In this document: in pieces, positions 1,138 to 20,989 of the stretch | How positions within the stretch are numbered: position 1 is the first letter of the stretch | Layout of the letters: each line of letters begins with the position of its first letter | Source: Natrialba sp. SSL1 | GTDB lineage: Archaea > Halobacteriota > Halobacteria > Halobacteriales > Natrialbaceae | Assembly (NCBI RefSeq): GCF_001861355.1 | Contig: NZ_MASN01000029.1 | Location: forward strand, 1-64,000 | Reading direction: 5' to 3' | DNA length: 64,000 nucleotides | Translations under genes and position numbers: made by a program | Notes under the pieces: model-generated | Databases searched by the model: none | The model's input: only the letters and a program-made list of their open reading frames with translations | Told to the model about the DNA's origin: nothing

Positions 1138-2289
1138 TCAGTCGCTTCCCACGCCCATCGACTCCGGTTGCTCCGGACGAGCGTGCTGGCCGAACTGCCG
1201 AACCGACTCGAGTTCGTCGACAGCGCCTTCGGCGAGTGCCACGTCGACGATGAGATCTGAGAGGGGAACCGTGTCCGCGAGGAACTCGTCACGGCGGCGT
1301 TGGTGGGGATCGTCGACAGTCGTGTCGGCTCCGCCCGCGCCATCGCCGGTCGCGCCGTCACCGAGCAGCGCTTCGATCTCGTCACAGATCCCGTCCGGCG
1401 AGGCAACGTTTCGGATGAGGCCGCGCTTCTCGAGTTCGACGAAATTCCCCATATCGTCCTCGCCGACGAAGGAGTTCGAGCGGATCGCGGGCGTGCCGAG
1501 GAGGGCAGCCTCGGTAACCATCGTCTGCGTGTCGGCGACGAGCAGGTCGGCCGCCGAAAGCGCGTCGTGGAGCAGCGCCGGATGCAGATCGAACGAGCGG
1601 GCGGGCAGTCCCTCGAGGTTGGCGGTGTCGCCCTCATCCGAGACGAGCACCGTCGCCTCTTCGGCCAACTGCTCGATGATCTGTCGGCGCTCGGTTCCCG
1701 TAATTCCCCGCTTGCCGACGTCGTGCTGGGAGCCGAAGGCGTTGAGCCGAAGAAGAGCGAACGGCTCGTCCGCCCCGAGGTCGAGTGCATCTCGAACGTC
1801 GGGATTCGGCTCGTAGACGTTCGGATGGAGGTACGCACACTCCTTGAGCCCCTCGAAGACGTAGTGGTGCTCGCCCAGATCCTTGCGGAAGGTGTTCGGT
1901 GTCAGAACGGTCCGGGCGAACGGCGTCGAAATCGCGTGATCGAACGCCGCCGGCTCGGAGTCGATCAGCAACACCGTTGGAGTCCGCAGGACGGCACCCG
2001 TATGGGCCGCATAGCCGCCCATCCCGAAGATCAGATCCGGATCGAACCGCCGTGCCAGCCGAATCGCCCGCACGTAGTGAGCCGGCAGACGGCTTACGAG
2101 TGATCCCTTCGTCGTCCCGCAGGCACCGTACACCTCGTAGGGCAGGTCGTGCCACTCGAGTAGGTCGACGGTGCAGGTGTACTCGCGAGCGAGGATGCGA
2201 ACGTCGTGGCCACGCGCTCGAAGGTCACGAACGGCGTGTTTGTATAGATGGACGTGCGCCGGCGTATTGGTGAAGAACAGGAATTTCAT
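1138..2289 (-). CDS. DUF354 family protein (GT-B fold)
   Basis: A 383-residue protein of the DUF354 family, which is related to UDP-GlcNAc 2-epimerases and GT-B glycosyltransferases. It starts MKFLFFTNTPAHVHLYK, the usual beginning (first Rossmann strand plus a His-containing loop) and holds the family-like FGMGGYAAHTGAVLRTPTV segment near residue 90. The C-terminal half has ADLLVADTQTMVTEAALLGTPAI (around residues 275-300), which resembles the nucleotide-sugar-binding side of GT-B enzymes. It is divergent from the gene at 2464 and lies at the edge of the surface-polysaccharide locus, so a role in sugar transfer or nucleotide-sugar conversion is inferred. Substrate unknown. Confidence 0.8.
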   Translation of the reverse strand: MKFLFFTNTPAHVHLYKHAVRDLRARGHDVRILAREYTCTVDLLEWHDLPYEVYGACGTTKGSLVSRLPAHYVRAIRLARRFDPDLIFGMGGYAAHTGAVLRTPTVLLIDSEPAAFDHAISTPFARTVLTPNTFRKDLGEHHYVFEGLKECAYLHPNVYEPNPDVRDALDLGADEPFALLRLNAFGSQHDVGKRGITGTERRQIIEQLAEEATVLVSDEGDTANLEGLPARSFDLHPALLHDALSAADLLVADTQTMVTEAALLGTPAIRSNSFVGEDDMGNFVELEKRGLIRNVASPDGICDEIEALLGDGATGDGAGGADTTVDDPHQRRRDEFLADTVPLSDLIVDVALAEGAVDELESVRQFGQHARPEQPESMGVGSD

Positions 2290-2428
2290 GAAAGCGATGT
2301 CTCCCGAGGGTCGGTGCCCCGCCAGCAGGGTTTGTTATCTCCCACATACCAGTTCGGACGAGCGTCATCGTGGACGACTGGTTCTGACTACCCGCTTGCC
2401 GTGTCGCCGGTACAGCGGGTAGCGAGCG

Positions 2429-2436
2429 TATAATAA
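2429..2436 (+). promoter_or_regulatory. TATA box for the 2464 gene
   Basis: TATAATAA lies 28 nt before the ATG at 2464, the distance expected for a leaderless haloarchaeal transcript. It supports that start codon. Confidence 0.6.
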
Positions 2437-2463
2437 TGGGACGCAGTGGGGAGCCTCGAGTAG

Positions 2464-3900
2464 ATGCAGTCGCAAGGATTTCCCGACACTGGCGGCGTGA
2501 CCGAGACCGGCGGGCGAGTCGAGCTGGGTGCGACAGCTGCGGAGACCGTCGAGCAGTACGAACCCGTACTGGATGCGACGCTCGCGTACGCGCGCCGACA
2601 CGACTATATCGGCCCGGATTACGGCGACGGCTTGAGTAGCCAGCTCCTTCAGGCGCTGCCGTTCGAGAACCGCGTGCTGAATCTCGTCGTTCAGGAGACG
2701 GTCAAGCGCACGCCCATCGACGTGCGGCCGCTGTTCCGCGTCGAGTGCAAGCGCAACTACAAGGGCGCGGCGCTGTTCGCGATGGCCAACCGGAACTATC
2801 AGCAGTTGGCCGCCCAGGACATCGCAGATCGCGGCGTCGCGGACCTGCCGTTCGACCCCGAAGGCGAGGCTGACCGGCTCGTCGATTGGCTCGTCGACGA
2901 ACGGATCACGGACTACAGCGGTTTCTGCGGCGGCCACCGCCACCCGATCCAGCACCTCCACACCAAGGGCGTGCCGAGCGATCCCGACATCGTCTCGACC
3001 GCCTACGCCGTCAGGGCGTTCCTCCAGGCCGCCCGCACCGACGACGACGCCGAGGAGTACGCCGAACTCGCCCGCACCGCCGTCGATTTCCTCGTTGAGG
3101 ACCTGAACTATCGGGAGGTCGAGACCGGCGCGAAGGTAGACTACCACATGAACCACCCCGATGACTCCTACACCGTCAACGCGGCCGCCATCGGCGCTCA
3201 CATGCTCGTCGACCTCTACGACTACTTCGGCGACGAGGAGTACCGCGAACGCGCGACGAAGATCCTCGACCATATCGCCACGGCCCAGACCGACATCGGC
3301 GGCTGGCCCTACCGCCTCCCAGCCTCCGCCTCCCACCTCTCGATGGACAGCCACCACAACGGCTTCGTCATCGAAGCCTTCCAGCACTACCGCGACGTGC
3401 TCGGGAGCGACCGCTACGCCGACACCCTCGACACCGCACTCGAGTTCTACCGCGAGGACCTGTTCGACCTCGACGGCGCGCCGAACTTCGACGAGGAGAA
3501 CGCCTACCCGCGCGATATCCACGCGAGCACGCAGGGAATACTCGTGTTCACGAAGGAAGGGGAACTCGAGTTGGCGGAGCGAATCCTGCGCTGGGTGCTC
3601 GCGAATCTGCAGGTTGAGGGTGAGGAAGGGCGATACTACTACCGGAAGTACCGCCATCACACGAAGCGGGTGACGCTGATGCGCTGGTGTCAGGGCTGGA
3701 TGGCCTACGCGATGTCGGAGTTCCTGCTGGCGGTGGCCGATGCGGACACTAACGCGAGTACGGTGGTGAACTCGATGGAGTCGAGTGCGACCGAGACGGA
3801 GGCGGAGGCCCAGGCGCTGGCGCAGCCGACGACCGACGGCGGGCGACCACCGGATGGGACTCCGAGCGACTGTGGAGACGAGACTGACTCCCAGTCATGA
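2464..3900 (+). CDS. six-hairpin (alpha/alpha barrel) glycosidase-like protein
   Basis: A 478-residue soluble protein with helical repeats ending in aromatic/His-rich loops (FCGGHRHPIQHLH near residue 157, DIGGWPYRLPAS near 280, SMDSHHNGFVIEAF near 300), typical of (alpha/alpha)6-barrel sugar-active proteins. Homologues in haloarchaea are often labelled 'antibiotic ABC transporter permease', but no membrane segment is visible here, so I reject that name. The final ~50 residues are a polar tail. Its stop overlaps the next gene by four bases (ATGA), so it is co-transcribed with the GT4 glycosyltransferase. Role in glycan metabolism is inferred; catalytic residues are not assigned. Confidence 0.7.
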   Translation: MQSQGFPDTGGVTETGGRVELGATAAETVEQYEPVLDATLAYARRHDYIGPDYGDGLSSQLLQALPFENRVLNLVVQETVKRTPIDVRPLFRVECKRNYKGAALFAMANRNYQQLAAQDIADRGVADLPFDPEGEADRLVDWLVDERITDYSGFCGGHRHPIQHLHTKGVPSDPDIVSTAYAVRAFLQAARTDDDAEEYAELARTAVDFLVEDLNYREVETGAKVDYHMNHPDDSYTVNAAAIGAHMLVDLYDYFGDEEYRERATKILDHIATAQTDIGGWPYRLPASASHLSMDSHHNGFVIEAFQHYRDVLGSDRYADTLDTALEFYREDLFDLDGAPNFDEENAYPRDIHASTQGILVFTKEGELELAERILRWVLANLQVEGEEGRYYYRKYRHHTKRVTLMRWCQGWMAYAMSEFLLAVADADTNASTVVNSMESSATETEAEAQALAQPTTDGGRPPDGTPSDCGDETDSQS

Positions 3901-5177
3901 GCCTCCGAACGCGGGACGGTGGCGACGACGACGGTGCCGATGTCGATGCCGGTGCCGATGGCGACCGAACGGAGACAACGACGGGAGCAGAATCACCAGC
4001 AGACGGAGACCCGCATCCGACGGAGGACTCGAACCACGCCCGCAGCGTCGCCAAAACCCAGCGGGTGCTCGCCATCACCGGCCTCGCGCACAAGAACGAG
4101 CGCCACTACGGCCCGCTCGCAGACGTGGCGGGGGAGACGACGCTCGTCTCGCTCGCCCCCGTCGAAGGCGTCGACGCGGCCCGAAATATCACCGTTCCCC
4201 AGGTCGGACCGCGGCTCCTGCGCGTCGTCTTGCTCTTCGTCGTCGCACTGTTCGAGGCCCGCCGGAACGAGTACGACGCGGTCGCCTCCATTTCGCTGTT
4301 TCCCTACGGCTGCTACGCACTCGGGCTGAAGGCCATCTTCGGGCTGCCGGCCCACCTCGGCATCATCGGTATCGACCTCGACCACCACGCGACCCAGCGG
4401 TACGGCCCGCTCGTCCGCTGGCTGTTCAGACGCTTCGACGTCGTATCGGTTCCCGGCTCCGACCACGCGGCCCGACTCGAACGCTGTGGCGTCCCCGCCG
4501 AGCGAATCGCCCGGCTGACGAATCCGATCGACGTCGATACCTACAGGCCCGAAGCGGCCGATACTGTCGACGACGATTCCGCTCCCGACGACCAGGACGC
4601 CACCGACTACGACTATGACTTCGCCTGGGTCGGCCGCTTCGGCCCCGAAAAAGATCCCCACCGATTCGTCGCGGCGATGGACGTACTCGAGTCCCGCCGA
4701 CAGAATTCCGAGTACACCGCGGTCATGGTCGGCGACGGTGCACTTCACGACGAGGTCGCAGCGCACATTCGGGCGCGGGGACTCGAGGACACCATCGAAC
4801 TCGCGGGCTGGGTCGACGACCCGATCGACTACTACCGCCGCTCGCGGGCGTTCGTGCTCACCTCCGAGCGCGACGCGCTGCCGCTCGTCTTGCTCGAAGC
4901 GATGGCGACCGGACTCGCGCCGGTCGTGCCTCGCGTCGGCTCGATTCCGGACGCCGTTGCGGACGGCGAGAACGGGATCATCGTCCCGGACCGACAGCCG
5001 GAGACGGTCGCCGCGGCGATGGAACGCCTCCTTGAGAAAGACGAACTGCGCCGTTCGCACGCGAGTGCGGCGACCGAGGTCCGAGAGTCGTTCTCGATGT
5101 CACGAGCCAGCACGGATTGGGCACGGATACTGGCTTCGATGGCCGGGACACAGCACCACTCGAGTTCGAGTCACTAG
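3897..5177 (+). CDS. GT4-family glycosyltransferase
   Basis: A 426-residue retaining glycosyltransferase of GT-B fold. The first ~45 residues are an Asp/Gly/Thr-rich tail. The catalytic core follows: FAWVGRFGPEKDPHRFV (donor-domain start, near residue 243) and ERDALPLVLLEAMATGLAPVV (the E-x7-E region, near 325). The ATG overlaps the stop of the upstream gene. A hydrophobic stretch (LLRVVLLFVVALFEA, about residue 105) may attach it to the inner face of the membrane. Likely adds a sugar to a lipid-linked glycan; donor and acceptor cannot be read from sequence. Confidence 0.85.
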   Translation: MSLRTRDGGDDDGADVDAGADGDRTETTTGAESPADGDPHPTEDSNHARSVAKTQRVLAITGLAHKNERHYGPLADVAGETTLVSLAPVEGVDAARNITVPQVGPRLLRVVLLFVVALFEARRNEYDAVASISLFPYGCYALGLKAIFGLPAHLGIIGIDLDHHATQRYGPLVRWLFRRFDVVSVPGSDHAARLERCGVPAERIARLTNPIDVDTYRPEAADTVDDDSAPDDQDATDYDYDFAWVGRFGPEKDPHRFVAAMDVLESRRQNSEYTAVMVGDGALHDEVAAHIRARGLEDTIELAGWVDDPIDYYRRSRAFVLTSERDALPLVLLEAMATGLAPVVPRVGSIPDAVADGENGIIVPDRQPETVAAAMERLLEKDELRRSHASAATEVRESFSMSRASTDWARILASMAGTQHHSSSSH

Positions 5178-5264
5178 CCCATCGCCCAAACGATCGGGAT
5201 CGGACCCGCTACGCCAGGGTAACGACGTGGTAACAAAACCGTCAGTCATCACACGCTGACCTAC

Positions 5265-6284
5265 ATGGACATCGAACGACTCGACCTCGCGGCGTGGGAC
5301 GACGCCCTCCCCGCCCGCGGCTTCGACGTCTTTCACGACCCCGACGCGCTCGCCGTCCTCGACGCCCACGCGGACAGCGAGTTGCGGCTGTACGGCGCGT
5401 TCAAAGGCCAACAGGTCGTCGGCCTGCTCCCTGTTTTCGTCGACGACAAGCCAGTCGGGCGCACGATCTTCTCGCCGCCGCCGGGACTCGGCGTCCCGCG
5501 ACTCGGCCCGATCATCAACCCCAACAGCCCCAAGCAGCGCAAGTGGGAGCGCATCAACGCCGCGCTCGCCGAGGGCGTCCTCGAGGACCTCGAAACCGAC
5601 CGGCGCTCGACGCTGTTCCGCATGACCTGTCCACTCGAGTACGCCGACCCGCGACCCTACGTCTGGAACGACCTCGCGGCCGAGCCGTCGTTCACCTACG
5701 TGGTCGACCTCGAGGACTGTGCGGACGTCGAGGACGCGATGGCGGGCTTCAGCAAGAGCCTGCGAAACGAGATGCGCCGGTACGACGAGCTCGACCTCTC
5801 GATCGAAACGGAGGGGGTCGATTCGGCGCTGCGGGTCTACGACGACGTAGTGGCGCAGTACGAGGAGTACGACGACACCGCGCCGATGTCCCGTCCCTTC
5901 CTGCGTGATCTCCTCTCGAGTCTGGACGACGACCGCTGGCGGGTGTACGTGGCGCGAACGCCCGACGGCGAGTACAAGAGCGGCATCATCACGCTGTTCT
6001 CGAACGATCTGGCGTACTACTGGCAGGGCGGGGTCACCGCCTCCTACGACCACGTGAGCGTCAACAACTGCCTCCACCGGGTGATCCTGGAGGACATCGT
6101 CACGGAGCCGGCACTCGAGTCCATCACGGGCTACGATCTGGTCGGGGCGAACACGGAGCGTCTCTGTGAGTACAAGGGCAAGTTCAACGGCGAGCTTCGG
6201 CCGTACTACACCGTGGAGTCGGCCGGACTCGAGATGACGCTCGCGAAGTCGGCGTACGAGCGGGTTGCTGGGTCGCTGAAGTGA
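5265..6284 (+). CDS. FemAB/GNAT-like peptidyl- or acyltransferase
   Basis: A 339-residue protein of the FemAB-like GNAT group (duplicated acetyltransferase fold). It shows IFSPPPGLGVPRLGP around residue 67, FSKSLRNEMRR around 163 (the conserved Arg/Asn segment), a GNAT-like core with YYWQGGVTASYDHVSVNN near 250, and YDLVGANTERLCEYKGKFN near 286. Such proteins in bacteria use aminoacyl-tRNA to add amino acids to cell-wall precursors; archaeal members are uncharacterised. It sits 87 bases after the GT4 gene and has a paralogue at 18198-19208. A role in decorating the surface glycan is inferred. Confidence 0.8.
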   Translation: MDIERLDLAAWDDALPARGFDVFHDPDALAVLDAHADSELRLYGAFKGQQVVGLLPVFVDDKPVGRTIFSPPPGLGVPRLGPIINPNSPKQRKWERINAALAEGVLEDLETDRRSTLFRMTCPLEYADPRPYVWNDLAAEPSFTYVVDLEDCADVEDAMAGFSKSLRNEMRRYDELDLSIETEGVDSALRVYDDVVAQYEEYDDTAPMSRPFLRDLLSSLDDDRWRVYVARTPDGEYKSGIITLFSNDLAYYWQGGVTASYDHVSVNNCLHRVILEDIVTEPALESITGYDLVGANTERLCEYKGKFNGELRPYYTVESAGLEMTLAKSAYERVAGSLK

Positions 6285-6352
6285 GGGAGAAAGAGTAAAA
6301 TTCGGTGTTGAATTGTCGTCCTGTTGCTGCTCCGTCACACTCACTGAGTCCG

Positions 6353-6778: not shown

Positions 6779-7403
6779 AGCGGAAACGTCACGTGGTTTC
6801 CATATATGTCTGGTGGATAGTTGTTTCGGCAGTGGCTGAGAACGGCTGTGGTCCCGCGAGAGCCCGGTAAGAACTACTTACGCGACGGCAACCCCTGTTC
6901 GTGTGCGGGACCATATACGACGTACCACGCACCGCGTTCAGCCACTGTTCGGCGAACCGGGAGTGTATCGGTGTCGCTGACAGCACACAAGCGGCACATT
7001 CGTCGACGTACACTACTCTTAACTAACGTTCGGGATTCTGTGGGTTGGATCATGGCTCTCTTCGGCGCGGGACAGCGGACGCTTTCAGCGGTGATCGATC
7101 TCCCCGTGGCGGTGCAGACGCGCATCGGTATCGGCAGCCACAGTCACACTCACAGCCACAACCACAGCAACACCCACACGAGAACAGGCATGTTCTCCCT
7201 CCTTCCCACACGGTGGAACTCGAGTACCCGTCCTTCCACCACTCTCACTCCCACTTCCATTCCCACACCGACACCCACCATTTCCCGACGACAGACCGCA
7301 GTCGACGATGGGGGACGGCGAAGGCACGGACGCGGGCGCGGACGAGAACGAGACCGCGGACGTGGACAAAAACGCGGACGATCGAACGGAGCAGGTGACC
7401 AAC
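6779..7403 (+). other. gene-poor interval ahead of the ATP-grasp gene
   Basis: About 620 bases without a supportable gene. It has a weak TATA-like stretch (ACTCTTAACTAA near 7012-7025) and a hexameric CACACC/CACTCC-type low-complexity run at 7130-7285. Open frames across it have Ser/Thr/His/Arg-rich compositions unlike haloarchaeal proteins. Confidence 0.5.
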
Positions 7404-8639
7404 ATGAGCGGTGAGCCGTGGACCCACTCCGTCGTCGTCCCGGCGATCACCGCCCCAAGTAGCGTCGCCTGCCTTCGGACCCTCGGACGGCGCGACATCC
7501 GAACCATCGTCGTTGCGGAGGACGAAACCGCACCGGCTCTGCGCTCGAAGTACTGCGACGAGGCCGTCCCAGTTCCGGACCCCCACGAGGATCTGGTCGC
7601 CTACAAGGACGCGCTGCTCTCCGTCGCGACCCGCTCCGACGTGCAGACGATTATTCCCGTCCGGGACGTCGACGTCTACGTACTCGCGAAGTACAAATCC
7701 GAGTTCGCCGACCACGTCGCCACCCCCTGGCCCGACATGGACACCCTCGCCAGCGCACAGGACCGAATCCGTCTCTTCGACGCGGCCGAAGAGGCCGGCG
7801 TGGGTGTTCCAGAGACAGGGGTACTCGAGTCCGATCCTGATTTTGGTTCGGACGCCGACCGACCGTGGAGTCAAGAGTGGATCGTCAAGGCCCGATACGC
7901 CGTGCTCGCCGACGAGTACGTCGACGACTACAGCCCGGAGCAGTACGTCGACCCGCCGAAAACCGAGTATCTCCGCCCCGGTGCCGAGCCGGATATCGAC
8001 GCGCTCACGCGGGAGATGGGTCATCAGCCGCTGCTTCAGGAGTACGTTCCCGTCACCGACGAGTACGGCTTCTTCGCGCTCTACGACCACGGCGAGCCGG
8101 TCGCCACGTTCCAGCACCGCCAGATTCGTGGCTACAGCTACGCCGGCGGCGCGAGTTCCTACCGGGAGTCCGTTCGCATCCCGGCACTCGAGGAGGCTGG
8201 CCGAGATCTACTGGGACACCTCGACTGGCACGGGCTGGCGATGGTCGAGTTCCTGCGGGACGAGGACGGCGAGTTCAAACTAATGGAGATCAATCCGCGG
8301 TTCTGGTCGTCGTTGCCGTTTTCGGTGCAGGCGGGCGCGGACTTTCCGTACTACTACTGGCAGCTCGCGACCGGAGAACGCGAGGCGATCGAGCACAGCT
8401 ACCAGGCGGACATCGCCGGCCACCTGCTGCGCGGAGAACTGCTCTACCTGTACTCGATCCTGTTCGACGACGTGGAACTGGCGGAGAAACCCTCGTTCAC
8501 GGAATCGCTCTCGGAAATTCTGTCGTCGATCGGTCGCGAGACGCGGTTCGATTACGCGAGCCTCGACGATCCGCGGCCGTTCGTTCGCGACCTGCGGAAC
8601 GCGTATCAGTACTACAAAGAGAAGGAGTCAGTCAAGTAG
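7404..8639 (+). CDS. ATP-grasp carboxylate-amine ligase
   Basis: A 411-residue ATP-grasp enzyme. The N-terminal ~90 residues form a Rossmann-like pre-ATP-grasp domain (TIIPVRDVDVYVLAKYK). The ATP-grasp core follows with WIVKARYAVLADEY (Lys near residue 160), LLQEYVPVTDEYGFFALYD (near 215) and the Mg-binding end EFKLMEINPRFWSS (Glu/Asn). A frame extension to 7308 exists, but AGGTGA at 7393-7398, five bases before the ATG at 7404, decides the start; the extension is Asp/Thr-rich junk-like. The family joins a carboxylate to an amine with ATP. Next to two FemAB-like enzymes this hints at amide decoration of a surface polymer. Confidence 0.8.
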   Translation: MSGEPWTHSVVVPAITAPSSVACLRTLGRRDIRTIVVAEDETAPALRSKYCDEAVPVPDPHEDLVAYKDALLSVATRSDVQTIIPVRDVDVYVLAKYKSEFADHVATPWPDMDTLASAQDRIRLFDAAEEAGVGVPETGVLESDPDFGSDADRPWSQEWIVKARYAVLADEYVDDYSPEQYVDPPKTEYLRPGAEPDIDALTREMGHQPLLQEYVPVTDEYGFFALYDHGEPVATFQHRQIRGYSYAGGASSYRESVRIPALEEAGRDLLGHLDWHGLAMVEFLRDEDGEFKLMEINPRFWSSLPFSVQAGADFPYYYWQLATGEREAIEHSYQADIAGHLLRGELLYLYSILFDDVELAEKPSFTESLSEILSSIGRETRFDYASLDDPRPFVRDLRNAYQYYKEKESVK

Positions 8640-11018: not shown

Positions 11019-12470
11019 TCACGAGAGCACGTTCTGCACGTCGAGCATCCCGCTCGTCACCGAAATAGTCGCCCAGACGAGGACGCCAACCGCGACGAGC
11101 GCGAGCAGCGACACCAGATTCGAGACTAATGGCAGCGCGACCGCGACGACGGCGGCCATACAGAGTGCAATTCCCGAAACCGCGACCACGGACTGTCCGA
11201 GGGACGGCAACGAGATCGGAAGTTCGGACCGGATGAGGTAGATGTTCACCGCGATCATGATGCCGTAACTGACGACCGTCGAGATCGCCGCGCCGGCAAT
11301 GCCGATCGTTGGGATCAACAGCAGATTCAGTCCGAAGTTGAAGCCGCCGGTCACACCCTTCGAAATTGCCCGGTGTTTCGCACGGCCGAGGTAGTCGAGC
11401 GCGTCGTTGGTGATCTTGTCGATCGCCTGAAAGACGATGAAGAACGCGAAGATCTGGATGACGAGCACCGCCTCCAGGTACGCCGGTCCGAAGACGTACT
11501 GCACCAGCGGCTCGGCGACGACGATCAGCCCCGCCGCAGCGGGGATGTAGAACAGCACGCTGTGTTTGAACGTCGTCTCGTAGACGTCAGCGGCCTTCTC
11601 GAGTTCCCCGTTTGCCTTGTACTCGCCGTAGGAAGGCGAGACGGTGAATCCGAGCGAACTCGCGGGCGCGATGACGAAGTCGGAAATCTGCTTCGCGAGC
11701 ACGTAATAGCCAACCGCTGCCGGCGTGAGGAAGACACCGATGAGCAGCGTGTCCACCTGCTTGTAGACCACGTTCGCGCCGTCCGAAACGGTCAGCGGCA
11801 GGCTGTACTCGAGTAACCGCCGTCGCAGGCCTGGCTCGCGTTCGTCGGCGGCGTCGAACTCGCCGAGCAACCGATACAGCAGGGTGAGCCCGTAGACGGC
11901 ACCGAGTACGTAACCGAGGACGTAGCCGGTGAGCGCGCCGATGACGCCGAAGCCGGCGACGAGGAACACGAGGACCGCAACCAGGGTCGTGACGTTCGTG
12001 AGGATCGTTACGCGCGCACTCCAGGGGATGCGATTGAACCCCTGGAAGATCGTGTGGACGTAGGAGTTGATCGTCCAGCAACTGATGTAGACGACGCCAA
12101 GCGCCAGCAGCGGTGCCAGCTCGCTCTCGCCGAACAGCGTCGCCAGTTGTTGGTGAAACACCGCGATCAGGATCGAGACAGTCAGCATCACTGCGGTCAG
12201 GAATGTGAGCGAATCTCGGATGATGTAGGGAACTTGCCCGGGATTCGTTTCCCGAAACTCCGCGAGATACCGTGCCGTTGACCGAGGGATTCCGAGGCGG
12301 CTGAACAGCAGCGAGGCGCTGAAGACCGAGATAGCCAGAAAGAGCAGGCCGTACTCGTCGGGCGTCAGAAACAGGCTCGCGAGCGACACCATGAGCACGC
12401 CCTTCGCAATCGTCCGGACGATTTCGGCGACCAGCGTCGCCCTGAAGCCGCGAATAATCTGTTGTTTCAT
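11019..12470 (-). CDS. polysaccharide flippase (MOP superfamily, Wzx-like)
   Basis: A 483-residue membrane protein with about 12-14 spans, N-terminal part IIRGFRATLVAEIVRTIAKG and the typical interior pattern of oligosaccharide flippases (YSLPLTVSDGANVVYKQVDTLLIG near residue 218). The family moves lipid-linked glycans across the membrane. It starts 25 bases after the Gfo/Idh gene in the same direction, so the two form an operon. It is the export step of the locus. Confidence 0.9.
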   Translation of the reverse strand: MKQQIIRGFRATLVAEIVRTIAKGVLMVSLASLFLTPDEYGLLFLAISVFSASLLFSRLGIPRSTARYLAEFRETNPGQVPYIIRDSLTFLTAVMLTVSILIAVFHQQLATLFGESELAPLLALGVVYISCWTINSYVHTIFQGFNRIPWSARVTILTNVTTLVAVLVFLVAGFGVIGALTGYVLGYVLGAVYGLTLLYRLLGEFDAADEREPGLRRRLLEYSLPLTVSDGANVVYKQVDTLLIGVFLTPAAVGYYVLAKQISDFVIAPASSLGFTVSPSYGEYKANGELEKAADVYETTFKHSVLFYIPAAAGLIVVAEPLVQYVFGPAYLEAVLVIQIFAFFIVFQAIDKITNDALDYLGRAKHRAISKGVTGGFNFGLNLLLIPTIGIAGAAISTVVSYGIMIAVNIYLIRSELPISLPSLGQSVVAVSGIALCMAAVVAVALPLVSNLVSLLALVAVGVLVWATISVTSGMLDVQNVLS

Positions 12471-12495
12471 TCAGAACGAACCAAACTGCGCCGCC

Positions 12496-13587
12496 TTAGA
12501 TTGTCGCCGGTGCCTCAGCGGTGGTGGTACTCGAGTCCCGGAGCGCCTCGATCAGTCGGATCGTCCACTTCGAGGACTCGAGCGAGACCGGCATCTCGGT
12601 GCCGGCCTCGATGGCGCGGGCGGTTCGGTCGAACTGGGCGTAGTGGGCGTTCATCTTGATTGCCGTCTCCCAGTCGTCGTTGAGCTGGCCGTCGGCGACG
12701 AGTTTGGCGTTCGAGAGCAGCCCGGAGAGGTAGCCGGCCGAGCGGGTGATCGCCTGCTTGCCCTTCTTGATCGAGGAGAGGTGGTACTCCTCGTCGACGG
12801 TCTGAATCGTCTGCAGGACCATATCGAGCTGGATCGACTTCTCGGTGCCGTGGACGTAGATCTCGTGACGCGGCTTCGAACTCGAGAGCATCTTCAGGCT
12901 GCAGAGCACGTCGTCTTCGGTGACGTACTGCAACTGGGCGGAGTCGTAGGCGAACTCGTCGTCGTAGTCGCCGACGAGCCGAGTGATACTCGAGATGGAC
13001 TCCTCGCTCTTCGGGAAGCCGCTGACTCTGAGCGCAGAGTAGATCGGGTGGGGGAGTCCCTCCTCGAACTCGCCGCCAGGGAGGTCGAAGACCCAGGTGC
13101 CGCGGTTCGCCTCGTCCGGGGTCGACAGCCCCGTGTAGATCAGGTCGACGCCGCGGATCTCACCGAGTTCGCCGGCGTGGATCATCCGACGAGCGGTTCG
13201 CATCACTGGGTCGAAGTTGTGCTGGTGGACCGGCGAGACCGGGACGTCGTGCTCGTCGGCGTAGGCTTCGAGCTCCTCGAGTTCCGCGACGGTTTCGGTG
13301 ACCGGCTTCTCGATCAGCAGCGGAACGCCGGCGTCGATCGCGCGCTTGGCCAGCGGGAGGTGGCTCTGGACCGAGGTGCAGATGTGGAGCCAGTCGAGCG
13401 ACTCCTCGGCGAGGAGGTCGTCGATGTCGCCGTAGGGCGTGATGTCGTACCGGGAAGCCGCCTCGCGCGCCCGGTCGATGTCGAGGTCGCAGATGCCGAC
13501 GAGTTCCGTCCGTGGGTTCTTGTCGATTCCCGAGAGATGAACCTCCGAGACTGTGCCGGCACCGACTACTGCCGTTTTGACTGTCAT
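12496..13587 (-). CDS. Gfo/Idh/MocA-family oxidoreductase
   Basis: A 363-residue NAD(P)-dependent sugar oxidoreductase. The N-terminal Rossmann motif is VKTAVVGAGTVSEVHLSG; EKPVTETVAELEEL near residue 95 is the conserved E-K-P signature; the second half is the substrate domain. The start at 13587 is chosen because GGAGGAG lies just upstream (13590-13596); an in-frame ATG seven codons earlier is less likely. In surface-glycan loci such enzymes oxidise nucleotide sugars (for example UDP-GlcNAcA 3-dehydrogenase); the substrate here is unknown. It heads the operon with the flippase. Confidence 0.88.
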   Translation of the reverse strand: MTVKTAVVGAGTVSEVHLSGIDKNPRTELVGICDLDIDRAREAASRYDITPYGDIDDLLAEESLDWLHICTSVQSHLPLAKRAIDAGVPLLIEKPVTETVAELEELEAYADEHDVPVSPVHQHNFDPVMRTARRMIHAGELGEIRGVDLIYTGLSTPDEANRGTWVFDLPGGEFEEGLPHPIYSALRVSGFPKSEESISSITRLVGDYDDEFAYDSAQLQYVTEDDVLCSLKMLSSSKPRHEIYVHGTEKSIQLDMVLQTIQTVDEEYHLSSIKKGKQAITRSAGYLSGLLSNAKLVADGQLNDDWETAIKMNAHYAQFDRTARAIEAGTEMPVSLESSKWTIRLIEALRDSSTTTAEAPATI

Positions 13588-13970
13588 TCTCCTCCGAAAG
13601 ACGAACACAGAGTGCTATTGTTATAGATCTGTTACCGATTTCGCGCTGAGATTCCGGTGATACCGCGCGCTACTGAACCCGATCACGCGTCGGCAACGGC
13701 TCCCTTCCGCGTGGCGAGACGATGGTAGCTGGTGGTTGTGCGGGGGTACGGACGGGCAGTCGTCACACGGTTCGGTCGACTGAAGCGGACAGTTCTCTGG
13801 CGATAGCAATAGCGCCAGAAAGTGGACGAGAACGAGGACAGTGGGATCGAGAACAGTCGAGTAGGAGCGAGGACAATGGAACCGAGAACAGTCGGGGTGA
13901 GAGCGAGAAGCAGGAAACAGTCGCACGCGCAGACGGTATCGACGACGCCGGTGAACGATAGCTACTGGAA
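13588..13970. other. intergenic interval with no clear gene
   Basis: About 380 bases between the Gfo/Idh gene and the large membrane protein, both on the minus strand. Purine-rich imperfect repeats (GAGAACGAGGACAGTGG-like at 13828-13910) are present. I see no coding region. Confidence 0.5.
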
Positions 13971-15848
13971 TCAGGCGTCGCTCATGCTGGCATCGATGTA
14001 GTAACGATCGAACTCGCCGTTCGTGTGAATACGGTTCACACCGGGTTCGTTCTCGAGTGCACTGAAGTCGCCGTCGCTGTGGCGGAGTTCCCCGTAGGCG
14101 TGCACCTCGCGGTCGTAGTCGTACTGACTCACCAGGAGATAGCGGTCGTCGTCGTACTCGTCGACGAGCCCGGAGCCAAACGCCGATTCGGGCACGTCGA
14201 AGTGGAGACGCATCCGTTCGTCGTTGCCGTGAATCGCGTCGTCGAACCGATTCGGTCCGTTTCGCAGGCCGACGATATCGACCTCGTCGGCTTGCGTGTC
14301 GAAGGCGGTCTCGTAGCCGCTCATCTGCTGGTCGCTGACGTGTGGCGATGGGTTGTACGTGTACGGCGAGGGGAAGACCGCCACGAGCGACAGCAACAGG
14401 AGGAGCGCGAAGCCGACGGCGAGCAGCGGCCGGCCCGAGGGGACGAACCGCGACTCCCGCCACCGTCCCGAAAAGCGGCCCGTCAGCCCGTCGATCGCGA
14501 TCGCACCGAGCAGCGTCACGAAGACCATCATCAGCCCGAAGACGCGGAAGTACATCGTCGAGCCGGGTGCCAGGAAGTAAACGACGAACAGCGGCCCCAG
14601 TCCCACCAGTGCGACGGCAAAGTACAGCGTCTCCGGTCGAATTCGGGCGAGCCACTCGGAGTTTCGTGCGCCGATAGCAGCCAGGATAAGTCCCGCGGCG
14701 AGCAGCGTAAAGAGGAGATGGACGGTGAATAGCTTGACAAAAATCTCACCGAGGCCGCTTCCGAGCGCGCCGAGCGAGGCACCCTGCATCGCGACTGTAT
14801 CACCGGCTCCGCCGCCATCTCTGAGAATAAAGTCGACAGCCGCGCTCAGGAAATGGTCGATCATCCCGCTGAAGAAGCCGTGATTCGATGTCCAGACGAG
14901 AAACAGCGCGACCAGGAACAGCGCCTGGCCGTACATCGGCGTCTGGTTCGCGATCCGCCCCTGCGAGGCGATCCGACGTGCCAGAAACTGCACCAGCGAG
15001 ATGCCGAGGAAGACGACGATCAGGTGTGCGACCAGCTGCGGGTGGTAGACGACCGTCGCGATGGAAACGAGGGCGAAGGCGGTGCCGACGGCGGACACCG
15101 TCGCGAGCGAGCGGTCGGCGCGGAGGTACTTCGCGAAGAGGAAGAACAGCAGTGCCGAGAACAGAACCGCCTGGGACATCGCGTGGGCCGTCATATACAT
15201 CGAAATCGTCGTGATCGGCAGGAGGAGGAACGACGAGAACGCGGCGATTACGACCGCGCGGCGATTCGAGACGATCGTTCCGGCACAGAGCGGAACGAAG
15301 ATCCAGAAGACGATCATCGTGGCGAGGATAGCGAGGAGCAACGACTGCTCGAGTGGAATGCCGACTGCGGCGTTGATCATCGCGGTCACGGTGTGGATAC
15401 CGGGATAGTACAGATCGAACGGAACGATGGTCCCGTCGGCCATCGCTCGTGCCCAGCCGAGGTGTGTGAGCGCGTCGTGATTACCGAAGAACCGATAGCC
15501 GCGGATCAGTGGTAGTCCGGCAAAGACGATCATCGTGAGCCCTCCGAGGACGACCGCGAGCGGCCGGCTGGTGAACAGCCGGGTGTTGGTCTGGCTATCT
15601 GGTTCCGTCCCTGCCCTCGTCCCACCGGTTACCGACGACGGTGGGATGAACGCGATAGCGAGCGCGATTGCCATGGCGACGAGCAGTCCGGCCCAGACGC
15701 GGCCGGGGGTCATCGTGTATAGCGAGAGCTCGTACCCGGTAGCGGGCGCACCGTGGGCGAGAAAGGCGCTGACAGCGACCGCGAGGAAGCCAACCGCGAG
15801 GGCGAGTTTTCGGAACGGTTCTTCGGTGACGGCTGACTGGGGAGACAT
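13971..15848 (-). CDS. large polytopic membrane protein, probable glycan enzyme
   Basis: A 625-residue protein with about 13 membrane spans followed by a ~130-residue hydrophilic C-terminus (from about YTYNPSPHVSD) predicted outside the cell. A short motif RFFGNHDALTHLGWARAMADG near residue 120 and DLYYPGIHTV just after resemble the first-loop acidic/His motif of GT-C glycosyltransferases and polymerases. A longer frame begins at 15965, but its extra 39 residues are not membrane-like and MSPQSAVTEEP at 15848 fits better. I infer a lipid-linked-sugar glycosyltransferase or polymerase; family not recognised. Confidence 0.7.
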   Translation of the reverse strand: MSPQSAVTEEPFRKLALAVGFLAVAVSAFLAHGAPATGYELSLYTMTPGRVWAGLLVAMAIALAIAFIPPSSVTGGTRAGTEPDSQTNTRLFTSRPLAVVLGGLTMIVFAGLPLIRGYRFFGNHDALTHLGWARAMADGTIVPFDLYYPGIHTVTAMINAAVGIPLEQSLLLAILATMIVFWIFVPLCAGTIVSNRRAVVIAAFSSFLLLPITTISMYMTAHAMSQAVLFSALLFFLFAKYLRADRSLATVSAVGTAFALVSIATVVYHPQLVAHLIVVFLGISLVQFLARRIASQGRIANQTPMYGQALFLVALFLVWTSNHGFFSGMIDHFLSAAVDFILRDGGGAGDTVAMQGASLGALGSGLGEIFVKLFTVHLLFTLLAAGLILAAIGARNSEWLARIRPETLYFAVALVGLGPLFVVYFLAPGSTMYFRVFGLMMVFVTLLGAIAIDGLTGRFSGRWRESRFVPSGRPLLAVGFALLLLLSLVAVFPSPYTYNPSPHVSDQQMSGYETAFDTQADEVDIVGLRNGPNRFDDAIHGNDERMRLHFDVPESAFGSGLVDEYDDDRYLLVSQYDYDREVHAYGELRHSDGDFSALENEPGVNRIHTNGEFDRYYIDASMSDA

Positions 15849-15980
15849 TCGGAGCTGGCGCGACGTTATCCCGTAGCTATCCTTGTTATTCACCGGTTGC
15901 GACCAGTAAGTCAACGAGTACCGAGACCGGTGGACCGAACGGCAAGTCACAGCCGGCGTCGCCATAACGGGACAGCCAAA

Positions 15981-15986
15981 TTTAAA
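15981..15986 (+). promoter_or_regulatory. TATA box for the 16015 gene
   Basis: TTTAAA sits about 30 nt before the ATG at 16015, in the expected leaderless spacing, and is the main support for that small gene. Confidence 0.55.
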
Positions 15987-16014
15987 GAGGAAACAAGACG
16001 AACTGTCAGCGACA

Positions 16015-16651: not shown

Positions 16652-17881
16652 TTAGTCGTCATCCTCGCCGTCGTCATCCTCGCCGTCGTCATCGTCACCC
16701 TCGTCTTCATCATCTTCCTCATCTCCACCATCATCATCCTCGTCTTCATCTTCAGCCTCGCCATCGTCCGCCTCCGAGTCACCTCCATCTCCATCTGCGC
16801 CTGCATCACCAGCCACTTCACCACCATCGCCGACAGTCACCCACAGATACGTCGACCGATCCGCGTTCTCGAGCGACGGCGACTCCGGCACCGACTCGTC
16901 GTACAGCAACACCGCTACACGGACCGTGCCGCTCTCTGCCTCCGGCGTCATCGACACTGCATCCTGGGTCGACTCGCCGTCCGCGAGGGTGTACTCGAGT
17001 CGGTCGTGTTCGATCCGGTCTAAGACCTCGCCGTCGTCGACCCACTGCTCCTGGACGACCGCGGTGTAGGTTTGCTCGGACTGTTCCTGATTCTCGAGGT
17101 TGATCGCCAGCGAGACGGAGTCGTTCGGAGTGGTTGTCGTCTCGTAGTCAGTGGCAACCAGTTCGCCGTCGTCGTCCTCGGTGAGCAGTTGGAGTTCGGT
17201 GTACTGTTCGCCGTCCTGTGGCGAGACGAGTGCGTAGCCGACGCTCGAGAGGGCGATGAGCATGCTCGCGACGAGGATGAGGTTGACTGCGGTGTGCACC
17301 GCCGAGTTGGTGCCGAACAGCGCCGCGTGGACGGTGTCGTACGCGCGACCGAAACTGAACTCGTAGCGGTTCTGTTCGGGGATTCGAATGCGTCGAAAAC
17401 CAGCGAGGAAGGCACAGACGAGCACGAAGCCGCTGATGAGGCCGACGACGGTTGTCTGGGAGAACGTGTACGGAGTGAGCGCGATACCGATCCCGAACAG
17501 CGGGAGGAGGGCGACACTCAGACCGAACGCGAGCGCAGCGCGCTCGACGCCGCTCACGGGAAGCGTCTGGCCGAACAGCGGCGTTGTGACCGTTTCCGAT
17601 GGCGGGCTCTCCCGTGGGAACAGCACGGAGACGGCGGCGTAGCCGGGTGCAACGAACAACAGCGGGAAGCCGACGGCGGCGCGCAGGAAGGGTGACGAGA
17701 CATCGACGATGACCAGGAGGAGTACCGAAACGACGGCGACGCCGGCGATGCCAACCAGATCAGCCGGGAGCCGAGCCACCGCCCTCGTTCCCCGCCCGAC
17801 GGTCGCGAACGGCTGTGTGTCCAGATCCAGAATCTCTTTCATGTATGCGTCAGTTATCCACCACTCGACTGGTTCTGACAT
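16652..17881 (-). CDS. DUF1616 membrane protein with poly-acidic tail
   Basis: A 409-residue DUF1616 protein. Four spans in the N-terminal half (LVGIAGVAVVSVLLLVIVDV near 45, a Pro/Gly-rich second span ending FVAPGYAAVSVLFP, two more near 120-165), one span near residue 210, then an extracellular beta-domain with NSLAI/NQEQSEQTY-like DUF1616 features. The last ~50 residues are almost only Asp, Glu and Gly. Start at 17881 is chosen over 17842; both are possible, and longer starts are not protein-like. DUF1616 genes are common near haloarchaeal glycosylation genes; exact function is unknown. Confidence 0.8.
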   Translation of the reverse strand: MSEPVEWWITDAYMKEILDLDTQPFATVGRGTRAVARLPADLVGIAGVAVVSVLLLVIVDVSSPFLRAAVGFPLLFVAPGYAAVSVLFPRESPPSETVTTPLFGQTLPVSGVERAALAFGLSVALLPLFGIGIALTPYTFSQTTVVGLISGFVLVCAFLAGFRRIRIPEQNRYEFSFGRAYDTVHAALFGTNSAVHTAVNLILVASMLIALSSVGYALVSPQDGEQYTELQLLTEDDDGELVATDYETTTTPNDSVSLAINLENQEQSEQTYTAVVQEQWVDDGEVLDRIEHDRLEYTLADGESTQDAVSMTPEAESGTVRVAVLLYDESVPESPSLENADRSTYLWVTVGDGGEVAGDAGADGDGGDSEADDGEAEDEDEDDDGGDEEDDEDEGDDDDGEDDDGEDDD

Positions 17882-18197
17882 TGTTACTAGTCGCGTAACC
17901 GACTGTCCGGATTCGGTAGCCGTCGCGGTACGTGCGACCCTCGGGCGATTCTCGACAATTGCCAACGGTCCCGGACGAAGCCACGACGCTGGCCCATCTC
18001 GGTGAAATCGAAGCACAGTGAGGCGGGGGACTCGAGTACGGAAACAGGTCGCTTACAAAGTGCACAGCGGGTGGGATCCACGGTATGGACAGGAGTGCAA
18101 CTCCAGACGCCGACGCAGACGCCCAACGCGGTGACGGTTCGCCCGTCCCCAGACCGTGTCTTCTCGCCTCCAAATTGCTCGGAGGTGGCTGTGGACG

Positions 18198-19208
18198 ATG
18201 AGTATCGACGTTCGCGTCGCCACGGAAGACGACCGCGAGCGCTGGAACGACCACGTCCGGCGCTCACCACAGGGAACGCTGTGTCACGAACTCGAGGCGC
18301 TCGACGTACAGGCCGAGCACTCCGGGTCGACGCTACACCCGCTGATCGGCTTCAAAGGCCAGGAGCCGGTCGGTCTCTTTCCGGTGTTCGAACTCAAAAA
18401 ACAGTTCGTGACGACCGTCTTCTCGCCGCCGCCACACATCCGCGTCCCCTACCTCGGCCCGGCGTTTCTGAACATGGGGAAGCTCAAACAGCGAAAGCGC
18501 GAGCGTCGCCGCCAGCGCTTCATGGACCGCTGTCTCGAGTGGATCCAATCCGAACTCTCGCCGCGATACGCACACATCCGAACCAGCACAGGTGTCGAGG
18601 ACGCACGGCCGTTCAAGTGGAACGAGTTCGACGCGACGCCGGAGTACACCTACGCGGTCGACCTCACGCGCGAGCGCGATGACCTCCTCATGTCCTTCAG
18701 TAGCGACGCGCGGAGCAATATCACGAATACCGACGAGGACGAGTACGAGGTCACCGTCGGGGACTCTGAGGAGATTGCCCTCATCCACGAGCAAGTGAAA
18801 AACCGCTACGAATCACAGGATATCAGCTTCGGCGTCCCACTCGAGTTCGTCCAGGATCTCGCCGATCAAACGGCGACCGGTGCCGTTCGGCCCTACACCC
18901 TGCGCGTCGACGGGGAGTTCGTCGGCGGAATTCTGGCACTCGAGTACGGCGATAGAACGGGTCGCTGGATGGGCGGTGTCCGGACGGATGCGGATGTCGA
19001 CGTGCCGACGAACGATCTACTGGACTGGGCGATTATGGAAGACGGGATGGAACGCGGCCTCGAAACGTACGATCTCGTGGGTGCGGATACGCGCCGGATC
19101 AACCGCTACAAGGCGAAGTTCAATCCGGAACTCGAGACGTACTACAGCCTGGAGTACGGCTCGTGGGGGATGAAGACGGTGGCGTCGTTGTACGACTCGG
19201 TGAAGTGA
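18198..19208 (+). CDS. FemAB/GNAT-like peptidyl- or acyltransferase
   Basis: A 336-residue paralogue of the protein at 5265-6284. Shared landmarks are FSPPPHIRVPYLGP (near residue 75), LMSFSSDARSNI (near 165) and YDLVGADTRRINRYKAKFN (near 290). The start at 18198 (MSIDVRVATEDDRERWN) is preferred because GGAGGTG lies at 18181-18187; an in-frame GTG at 18156 is less likely. It is 167 bases before the phosphodiesterase-like gene. Same inferred role: transfer of an amino acid or acyl group to a surface-glycan component. Confidence 0.8.
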   Translation: MSIDVRVATEDDRERWNDHVRRSPQGTLCHELEALDVQAEHSGSTLHPLIGFKGQEPVGLFPVFELKKQFVTTVFSPPPHIRVPYLGPAFLNMGKLKQRKRERRRQRFMDRCLEWIQSELSPRYAHIRTSTGVEDARPFKWNEFDATPEYTYAVDLTRERDDLLMSFSSDARSNITNTDEDEYEVTVGDSEEIALIHEQVKNRYESQDISFGVPLEFVQDLADQTATGAVRPYTLRVDGEFVGGILALEYGDRTGRWMGGVRTDADVDVPTNDLLDWAIMEDGMERGLETYDLVGADTRRINRYKAKFNPELETYYSLEYGSWGMKTVASLYDSVK

Positions 19209-19375
19209 CACAGCGAACCCGCAACAAACTGCGGTAGGTCCCAGTTACCCACCGTTTTGCACTGGCTGACTGTTGTGTACTCGTGAATAACGCTGATTCG
19301 ATCGATGGTGGGCCAGCCGCCAAATCCGGGTAACCGCACACATAACGAAAGGTCGAGACCGGGCACTTCCACTCG

Positions 19376-20989
19376 ATGAACGACGATTCGTCGCTGCAGA
19401 CCCTGCTCGTCGGGATCGACGCGGCCTGCGACCGCATTCTGGAGCCACTGTTCGATGCTGGCGACCTCCCGACGCTCGAATCGATCTACGAGGACGGCGC
19501 GAACGGACCACTCGAGTCCCAGATCCCGCCGTGGACGGCCAGTGCCTGGCCGTCGCTCTACACCGGCAAAAATCCCGGCAAGCACGGTGTCTTCGGCTTT
19601 CTCTCCTTCGATGGCTACGACTGGGACGTGGTCAACGCCAGCGACGTTCGCGAACCCGCCCTGTGGGAACTTCTCTCCGAACAGGGACTCACGAGCGTCG
19701 TCGTCAACGTGCCGGTCACTCACCCGCCCCGCGAGTTCGACGGCGCGGTGATCCCCGGCTACACCGCCCCGGAGAATCCAGCCTGCCATCCCGAGGGGCT
19801 ACTCGAGGACGTCCGCGAGTCGATCGGCGAGTATCGCGTCTACCCCGACGAGGACGCCGACGATCTGGGCGGCGCGTACGCCGACTGCGTCCGCATGCGC
19901 GGCGAGGCCTTCCAGTACCTGGCCGACCGGTTCGACCCCGAGTTCGGCTTCCTCGAGTTCCAGGCGACGGATTCGATCTTCCACAAGGAGCCCGAAAACG
20001 ACGCAGCGATCCGCGAGATCTATCGGGAAGTCGACCGCCAGCTTGCCGATATTCTCGAGACCCACGACCCGGACACCGTGATCGTCGCGAGCGATCACGG
20101 CATGGGTCCCTACGAGGGCCACGAGTTCCGGGTGAACGAATTCCTCCGCCGCGAGGGCCACGTCGAGACCACGGACGGCGGCGAGGGGATGCCGACCTGG
20201 GCGACGGTCCGCGACGACTCGCTCAAGGCCGGCGAGGAGACGACCCAGCGCGAGCAGGGCCTCTCCGAGCGCGCGATGGCCGCCGCCGCGGGCGTCGGAC
20301 TCACGAGCCAGCGCATCGAAGCCGTCCTCGAACGCCTCGGACTCGCCGACTTCGCGGCTGCCCACGCGCCAACTGGACTCGTTAGCGCGGGTGCGACGCA
20401 GGTCGACTTCCCGAACTCACGCGCGTACGTCCGCTCGCGCATCGAACTCGGCGTCCGGCTCAACGTCGAGGGCCGCGAGCCGAACGGTGTCGTTCCGGAG
20501 GCGGAGTACGAAACGGTCCGGACACAGGTCATCGACGCCCTGCGCTCCGCGCGAACGCCCGACGGCGACCCCGTCTTCGAGGCGGTCCGCCCGCGCGAGG
20601 ACTACTTCCACGGCCCCGAGAGCGAGCGCGCGGTCGACATCGTCACGATCCCCGCCGACTTCGAGCACTTCATCTCCGCAACGCTGCGAGACGAGCAGTT
20701 CGGCCCGCCGAGCGAGCCCTGGAACCACAAACTCGAGGGCACGGTCGCCGTTGCGGGCGGGGGCGTCGACCGCGCGGCCGGTGTCGGTGACGCACACCTG
20801 TTCGACGTCGCGCCGACCGTACTGGCGAGCCTCGGCGTGCCCGCGGACGAGCGCATGGACGGTGAGGTACTCCCGTGTCTCGACTCGAGTGGAACAACAG
20901 ACTATGCCCGTCGCGACGAGGGAGATACTGTCGCGACCGACGACGATGCCGTCGAGCAGCGGCTCGCAGATCTTGGGTATCTCGAGTAG
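19376..20989 (+). CDS. alkaline-phosphatase-superfamily phosphodiesterase
   Basis: A 537-residue metal-dependent enzyme of the nucleotide pyrophosphatase/phosphodiesterase type. Asp in LLVGIDAACDR (residue ~14) and the Thr/Ser in PPWTASAWPSLYTGKNPGKHG (residues ~51-71) form the metal/nucleophile site; QATDSIFHK (~200) and VIVASDHGMGPYEGHEF (~240) supply the other metal ligands. No signal peptide or membrane span, so it is cytoplasmic by this reading. In surface-polymer loci such enzymes process nucleotide-linked or phosphodiester-linked intermediates. Substrate not predictable. Confidence 0.85.
   Translation: MNDDSSLQTLLVGIDAACDRILEPLFDAGDLPTLESIYEDGANGPLESQIPPWTASAWPSLYTGKNPGKHGVFGFLSFDGYDWDVVNASDVREPALWELLSEQGLTSVVVNVPVTHPPREFDGAVIPGYTAPENPACHPEGLLEDVRESIGEYRVYPDEDADDLGGAYADCVRMRGEAFQYLADRFDPEFGFLEFQATDSIFHKEPENDAAIREIYREVDRQLADILETHDPDTVIVASDHGMGPYEGHEFRVNEFLRREGHVETTDGGEGMPTWATVRDDSLKAGEETTQREQGLSERAMAAAAGVGLTSQRIEAVLERLGLADFAAAHAPTGLVSAGATQVDFPNSRAYVRSRIELGVRLNVEGREPNGVVPEAEYETVRTQVIDALRSARTPDGDPVFEAVRPREDYFHGPESERAVDIVTIPADFEHFISATLRDEQFGPPSEPWNHKLEGTVAVAGGGVDRAAGVGDAHLFDVAPTVLASLGVPADERMDGEVLPCLDSSGTTDYARRDEGDTVATDDDAVEQRLADLGYLE

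Follow-up and report, generated by a model that had tools for sequence, protein, structure and literature searches.

The window analysed here, the first 64 kb of contig C29 from the 4.58-Mb genome of the haloarchaeon Natrialba sp. SSL1, carries at positions 1138-20989 a surface-polysaccharide locus that, in the interpretation we favor with moderate confidence, furnishes an unusual sugar with an amino acid. The locus would be an archaeal equivalent of the Wbp/Vim pathway described in bacteria, with the amino acid replacing an N-acetyl group of a diamino-uronic acid before the polymer is assembled. In Porphyromonas gingivalis and Tannerella forsythia, a di-N-acetyl uronic acid is produced by Wbp enzymes; VimE has been proposed to remove its C-2 acetyl group, and VimA to add serine or glycine. 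When vimA was exchanged, the amino acid was exchanged too; the VimA protein has a match to TIGR03019, the XrtA-associated FemAB family (PMC7468200). Our interpretation centers on FemAB-A, one of two FemABX-type transferases encoded in the window (Table 1), and on a VimE-like deacetylase that is encoded outside the window and is the near-obligate partner of FemAB-A.

We assessed the link between these two genes across 146 genomes of the order. FemAB-A was found in 76 of them, and the transferase-deacetylase linkage of the VimA type holds in 75 of these 76; one genome contains FemAB-A only, five contain the deacetylase only, and 65 possess neither gene (Fisher 3e-34). Since the genomes are related, the count was also made by genus: both genes are present in 28 genera, FemAB-A alone in one, the deacetylase alone in three, and neither in 24 (p 2e-11). 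The distance between the two genes is at most 2 kb in 50 of 75 genomes and at most 20 kb in 69. In 40 stretches of 20 kb, each centered on a FemAB-A orthologue from another genome of the order, the deacetylase is present 33 times, and in 17 stretches it lies directly upstream (within 300 bases, on the same strand).

Homologues of other genes of the window recur in the same 40 stretches to the extent listed in Table 1, and none was found in 19 random stretches taken from some of the same genomes. FemAB-A and FemAB-B lie no more than 20 kb apart in at least 39 of the 58 genomes with both among the matches listed, against 0.8 expected under random placement; this and the other proximity counts for FemAB genes given below are lower bounds, obtained among the FemAB-B matches listed, and the expected values assume a single replicon of 3.6 Mb. 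The locus is therefore a recurrent type with variable content, found more often than by chance. Relatives differ considerably in gene order and content, and many copies are plasmid-borne; neither plasmid copies nor related genomes are independent data points. Such variability would suit an ordinary polysaccharide locus in a plastic region, frequently found on plasmids, that carries the FemAB and ATP-grasp genes as unrelated passengers. This explanation is set against the near-perfect co-occurrence and adjacency of FemAB-A and the deacetylase, the same-strand pairing of FemAB-B with a phosphodiesterase gene in 12 of 15 loci, and the absence of any window gene from the 19 random stretches. We consider it highly improbable, and the co-occurrence and pair data have already largely refuted it.

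FemAB-A is 98% identical to its orthologue in Natrialba (Nab.) magadii and 97% identical to the proteins of Nab. hulunbeirensis and Nab. chahannaoensis. In Nab. magadii, the deacetylase gene sits 9 kb upstream of FemAB-A; its orthologue in the genome studied here, 91% identical, is found on another contig (C35:1641-2711). The Nab. magadii region matched, in reversed orientation, by the start of C35 lies just upstream of the one matched by the window, and 2.4 kb separate the two there. Because of this synteny, and because a TnpB-like transposase gene stands at the start of the window, the two contigs most likely meet at an insertion element, which would place the deacetylase a few kb ahead of the first base of the window; the assembly probably broke at the TnpB element, between the deacetylase and the DUF354 gene. 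The best NCBIfam match of the deacetylase is VimE, the uridine diphosphate (UDP)-2,3-diacetamido-2,3-dideoxy-glucuronate deacetylase (48-66 bits). Since this lies far under the cut-off of 440, we class the protein, judging by its sequence, as a VimE-like relative rather than a VimE equivalog.

Sequence searches of the PDB gave little for the FemAB proteins: FemAB-B alone and its C-terminal piece returned nothing useful, and a FemAB-A profile matched only FemX, and that weakly. Structural comparison was therefore needed. An AlphaFold2 model of FemAB-A, built from 42 aligned orthologues (mean predicted local distance difference test, pLDDT, 91), displays the full-length tandem-GNAT FemABX fold. 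Its nearest solved structures are all aminoacyl-transfer RNA (tRNA)-dependent transferases, matched over near full length (297-307 residues): FemA (Z 25.4), FemX (Z 23-25), and Sba18 and Sbb17, both in complex with streptothrisamine (Z 23). The same enzymes ranked top when Foldseek was used. Matches to the aminoacyl transferase domains of MprF (Z 16-17) and to acetyl-coenzyme A (CoA)-dependent tandem GNATs and others (Z at most 14) were weaker. When aligned via a further FemAB protein of this genome (L150), FemX residues 304-305 (FK) correspond to Y303-K304 of FemAB-A. K304 is invariant in the 42 orthologues and kept in FemAB-B, and its FemX equivalent, K305, is what we take to be the catalytic lysine. 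The modeled fold and K304 point to aminoacyl transfer.

With respect to sequence families, FemAB-A has no match to the Pfam family FemAB (PF02388), and FemAB-B scores 17.9 bits where the cut-off is 24. Against TIGR03019 (XrtA/PEP-CTERM FemAB; cut-off 260 bits), FemAB-B reaches 28.3 bits and the window's FemAB-A gives no match, while 27 of the 42 proteins in the FemAB-A alignment match weakly. The label VimA-like for FemAB-A refers to the deacetylase linkage and to these TIGR03019 matches, not to a direct comparison with VimA. An earlier, sequence-only reading of this DNA had called the two proteins FemAB-like, which agrees with the FemABX fold in the model of FemAB-A and goes too far for the PF02388 threshold, both proteins being members of PF13480. 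From these genes it had suggested a surface glycan that is either amide-decorated or peptide-bearing. Amide decoration is the preferred interpretation, since the FemAB genes sit in surface-glycan loci that recur among haloarchaea and since the predicted fold and the conserved lysine speak for aminoacyl transfer; the suggestion is narrowed here to a diamino-uronic acid on which an amino acid takes the place of one N-acetyl group.

Alternatively, FemAB-A and FemAB-B could be acyl-CoA-dependent N-acyltransferases that add another acyl group (formyl, hydroxybutyryl or similar) after deacetylation, yielding a glycan with varied N-acyl groups and no amino acid. Pfam assigns the proteins to the GNAT family Acetyltransf_6, the public records of plasmid-borne relatives name them "GNAT family N-acetyltransferase" (and their partner "polysaccharide deacetylase"), and an amide on the freed amine fits either donor. 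We regard this alternative as rather unlikely, since the full-length model matches aminoacyl-tRNA-dependent transferases at Z 23-25 and acetyl-CoA-dependent tandem GNATs at no more than Z 14, since the lysine equivalent to FemX K305 is invariant, and since the nearest genetically tested enzymes, the VimA proteins of P. gingivalis and T. forsythia, attach serine or glycine (PMC7468200).

Additional FemAB-like genes were noted in this genome and beyond. The protein used to bridge the FemX alignment (L150 703-1785; C30:51445) is the only one of the genome above the Pfam FemAB cut-off. Further families of the phylum also have proteins matched by the FemAB-A profile, several of them encoded in tandem; two or three such genes in a row (e.g., G232:C1:1247643-1250590) resemble bacterial FemA/FemB pairs. 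In genus g27 (e.g., G017:C9:114696-115775), the FemAB-A match begins at residue 97 after a separate N-terminal piece with the frame open, which suggests a divergent or inserted N-terminal region.

Genes of the Wbp type accompany FemAB-A as well. Among the 40 stretches, 20 possess a WbpB-like gene, 20 a sugar dehydrogenase gene and 17 a WbpD-like gene, and in at least 52 of 79 genomes (0.9 expected) a WbpB-like gene and a FemAB gene are no more than 10 kb apart. On annotated plasmids, the neighbors of FemAB genes are recorded as polysaccharide deacetylase, nucleotide-sugar dehydrogenase, Gfo/Idh, DegT aminotransferase, hexapeptide acyltransferase and WecB. The Natrialba genome contains two WbpA-B-E-D clusters, assigned by homology with family scores partly below the equivalog cut-offs. 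The first, on contig C50, comprises WbpD, DegT, WbpB, WbpA, GT2, DUF354, WecB and deacetylase genes; the second occupies roughly 447-454 kb of C35, and about 30 kb away lies a third FemAB gene that has its own phosphodiesterase gene. The Gfo/Idh oxidoreductase of the window was considered as the Wbp 3-dehydrogenase and ruled out, since it scores 85 bits against NF040723 compared to about 240 for members of Wbp clusters (C50 enzyme). A sugar of exactly the Wbp type, an N-acetylated diamino-uronic acid, makes up three residues of the exopolysaccharide of Haloferax denitrificans (PMC3191746).

We propose deacetylation followed by aminoacylation because the loci hold the set of Wbp/Vim activities, because TIGR03019 is weakly matched and because the Wbp-type sugar occurs in H. 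denitrificans. Wbp-type enzymes encoded elsewhere in the genome would make UDP-2,3-diacetamido-2,3-dideoxy-uronic acid, from which the VimE-like deacetylase, encoded just upstream of the window, would strip one N-acetyl group. FemAB-A would then load an amino acid onto the freed amine, with aminoacyl-tRNA as the most likely donor, and FemAB-B probably modifies another site or step, perhaps with another amino acid. Since hydropathy analysis revealed no membrane segments in FemAB-A, FemAB-B, the ATP-grasp protein, the phosphodiesterase or the deacetylase, these proteins probably act in the cytoplasm, and the reactions up to this point would take place there on a nucleotide sugar or a lipid-linked unit. 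The GT4, DUF354 and DUF6541 proteins would build the unit and the flippase would export it; the repeat protein and the DUF1616 protein would work outside the cell or in the membrane. We infer the substrate, the donor, the amino acid and the order of these steps, as well as any part taken by the ATP-grasp enzyme and the phosphodiesterase.

Several points weigh against this proposal. The Wbp genes of Natrialba lie outside the locus. The deacetylase scores 64.5 and 48.2 bits against VimE family NF053580, its sole family match, and does not reach the cut-off of 440; overall, VimE and TIGR03019 scores stay far under the curated equivalog cut-offs (66 versus 440, and 28-38 versus 260 bits). Fold similarity is no proof of which donor FemAB-A uses, and the five genomes that have the deacetylase and lack FemAB-A would need other FemAB paralogues to take its place. 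Furthermore, the known exopolysaccharide structures of Haloferax report no amino acid; that of H. mediterranei consists of N-acetylglucosaminuronic acid (GlcNAcA) and mannose with sulfate, and that of H. gibbonsii of neutral sugars (PMC5852497, PMC3191746). Despite these exopolysaccharides without a reported amino acid, plasmids of both species carry FemAB and deacetylase genes, in H. mediterranei a FemAB pair (E6P09_RS16700 and RS16705) and a deacetylase (RS16715). The FemAB cluster on pHME505 of H. mediterranei may be distinct from the published exopolysaccharide cluster.

The ATP-grasp protein belongs to its superfamily by fold and by its ATP and Mg residues, and its active site is intact, with K194, E314, E327 and N329 invariant in 13 homologues. 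Its neighbors in fold space are 2PN1 (Z 25.9), PurK, PylC, biotin carboxylase and L-amino-acid ligases, a comparison in which ligases and carboxylases tie (PurK, biotin carboxylase and 2PN1 match equally well or better than the ligases). The gene lies near a FemAB gene in at least 19 of 55 genomes (about 2 expected), and many copies are far from FemAB. Only some of the loci have the ATP-grasp gene, as an accessory; as a central partner it was rejected on co-occurrence. An ATP-grasp paralogue (543 amino acids) is encoded directly beside another GNAT-type gene on contig C18 (L148 9890-12941), and the same pair is present in Natronorubrum aibiense.

The sequence-only reading had coupled the ATP-grasp gene to the FemAB genes as a source of amides. 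The proximity to FemAB stands; amide formation in the glycan is a putative role of the enzyme. Were the ATP-grasp enzyme to make the main amide, by joining an amino acid or amine to the uronic-acid carboxylate or by forming a short peptide that FemAB proteins extend, the product would be a truly peptide-bearing glycan, as that reading had envisaged. The intact active site, PylC and L-amino-acid ligases among the fold neighbors, the excess of copies near FemAB and the pairing of the paralogue with a GNAT on C18 are in keeping with this. However, the fold match fails to separate ligases from carboxylases, and the gene was not found in 28 of the 40 FemAB-A stretches, with many copies distant from FemAB; we consider such a peptide-bearing glycan unlikely.

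The features of the locus are compiled in Table 1. All genes named in the sequence-only reading (GT4, DUF354, flippase, Gfo/Idh, GT-C-like, ATP-grasp, two FemAB-like and phosphodiesterase-like) are present close to where it had placed them; for its beta-helix protein, the gene and homologues were recovered, and a Pfam match was not. It had passed over the alpha/alpha-barrel-like and the DUF1616 proteins. The relatives of the former are annotated as "antibiotic ABC transporter permease", yet hydropathy analysis detected no transmembrane segment in it. That reading had suggested the flippase as the reference gene for a test of co-occurrence: flippase and ATP-grasp genes do recur in FemAB-A loci (14 and 12 of 40), and the strongest partner turned out to be the VimE-like deacetylase (33 of 40), with Wbp-type genes in about 20 of 40. 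Adjoining the phosphodiesterase gene is an integrase-like open reading frame without a Pfam match (21097-22422), which is kept in this position in several Natrialbaceae loci.

Table 1. Features of the window at and around the surface-polysaccharide locus; the last column gives the number of the 40 FemAB-A-centered stretches that contain a homologue.
Feature	Position	Strand	Evidence and remarks	Stretches (of 40)
TnpB/OrfB, IS605-type element	32-949		very start of the contig	
DUF354/GT-B-like protein, probable glycosyltransferase	1138-2289	-	PF04007 23.3 bits, cut-off 22 (marginal); Glyco_trans_4_4	30
Alpha/alpha-barrel-like (toroid) protein, without clear family	2464-3900	+	weak Pec_lyase/GH76/LanC-like matches	17
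GT4 glycosyltransferase	3897-5177	+	PF00534, E 6.5e-33; best NCBIfam match TIGR03088 (XrtA/PEP-CTERM glycosyltransferase), below cut-off	
FemAB-A, FemABX-fold transferase, proposed aminoacyl transferase, VimA-like	5265-6284	+	PF13480 Acetyltransf_6, E 1e-20	
ATP-grasp protein, carboxylate-amine ligase type	7308-8639	+	PF15632, PylC-like_N	12
Repeat protein, probably secreted (Tat-like RR signal), possible beta-helix	8750-10435	-	the sequence itself; no Pfam match	10
Polysaccharide flippase, MOP family	11019-12470	-	PF01943, 2e-25	14
Gfo/Idh oxidoreductase, not WbpB-type	12496-13608	-	PF01408; NF040723 85 bits	16
DUF6541 polytopic membrane protein, GT-C-like candidate	13971-15965	-	PF20176; 12 hydrophobic segments	13
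DUF1616 membrane protein	16652-18016	-	PF07760, 9e-95	11
FemAB-B, second FemABX-type transferase, 35% identical to FemAB-A	18156-19208	+	PF13480, 3e-21; FemAB 17.9 bits; TIGR03019, 8.7e-7	
Phosphodiesterase, alkaline-phosphatase superfamily, no membrane segment	19376-20989	+	PF01663, 1.7e-35; partner of FemAB-B	20

Linkages between amino acids and glycans were found chemically in Halococcus decades ago, and to our knowledge no archaeal enzyme that attaches amino acids to surface glycans has been identified. What is already known are the amide-bearing polymers of haloarchaea that lack murein (PMC4187196, PMC4243693) and the bacterial Wbp/Vim pathway, the main text of whose description does not mention archaea (PMC7468200). 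What seems to be new is an archaeal locus that joins both, with a tight link between FemAB and deacetylase; the literature collection searched contained no paper on such an archaeal locus, none naming FemAB together with haloarchaea, and on FemAB with archaea and exopolysaccharide only an unrelated one. If our proposal is true, aminoacyl-tRNA-dependent decoration extends beyond murein and beyond bacteria, and genes recorded merely as GNAT family N-acetyltransferase and polysaccharide deacetylase gain a function. Since roughly every second genome sampled in the order has the FemAB and deacetylase pair, the question can be tested directly in a genetically tractable species. A bolder version, which we put forward tentatively and hold to be doubtful, is that archaea without murein possess a full system of aminoacyl-tRNA-dependent sugar decoration, in which FemABX-type enzymes act on deacetylated diamino-uronic acids, paralogues A and B add different residues or, together with the ATP-grasp enzyme, extend a short peptide, and the same family stands behind the glycyl bridges of Halococcus and their methanogen equivalents.

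In comparison to the Wbp/Vim system of P. gingivalis and T. forsythia, the haloarchaeal loci share Wbp enzymes, a deacetylase of the VimE kind, a TIGR03019-related GNAT/FemAB transferase and, in some cases, an asparagine-synthase-like gene. They differ in being archaeal, in having no type IX secretion and in forming a polysaccharide locus that is not known to join proteins to lipopolysaccharide; two or three FemAB paralogues, additional ATP-grasp and phosphodiesterase genes, the location of the Natrialba Wbp genes elsewhere and scores below the equivalog cut-offs set them apart further. Exopolysaccharide loci of bacteria with XrtA/PEP-CTERM systems contain the order deacetylase-femA-GT4-asparagine synthase, for example in Rubrivivax (PMC3684757). 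With these, the haloarchaeal loci have in common a WecB-type epimerase, a polysaccharide deacetylase, a FemAB-related gene and a GT4 gene in a row, and families of the XrtA type are the best NCBIfam matches of the window's GT4 and FemAB-B, although these matches are far under the curated cut-offs and the genes for membrane assembly differ.

FemAB-A resembles the FemABX enzymes (FemA, FemX and MurM, and also Sba18/Sbb17) in its full-length, two-domain GNAT fold, its size of about 340 amino acids and its conserved lysine; it differs in that PF02388 is not reached and in that the acceptor must be another one because the organism has no murein. The complexes of Sba18 and Sbb17 with streptothrisamine, as their PDB titles state, indicate that the FemABX fold can serve acceptors other than murein. 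For the amino-acid linkages in the walls of Halococcus and Natronococcus, we know of no enzymes. A plasmid of Halococcus dombrowskii carries a FemAB-A homologue (L007 18001-19029; 49%) without a surrounding glycan cluster, which makes it a candidate for the glycyl bridges of Halococcus walls. The amide-bearing surface polymers of these haloarchaea comprise the N-glycyl-glucosaminyl bridges of the Halococcus wall and the glutaminylglycan (polyglutamine) of Natronococcus (PMC4187196, PMC4243693). With these walls, the Natrialba locus would have in common a haloarchaeal surface polymer that bears amide-linked amino acids.

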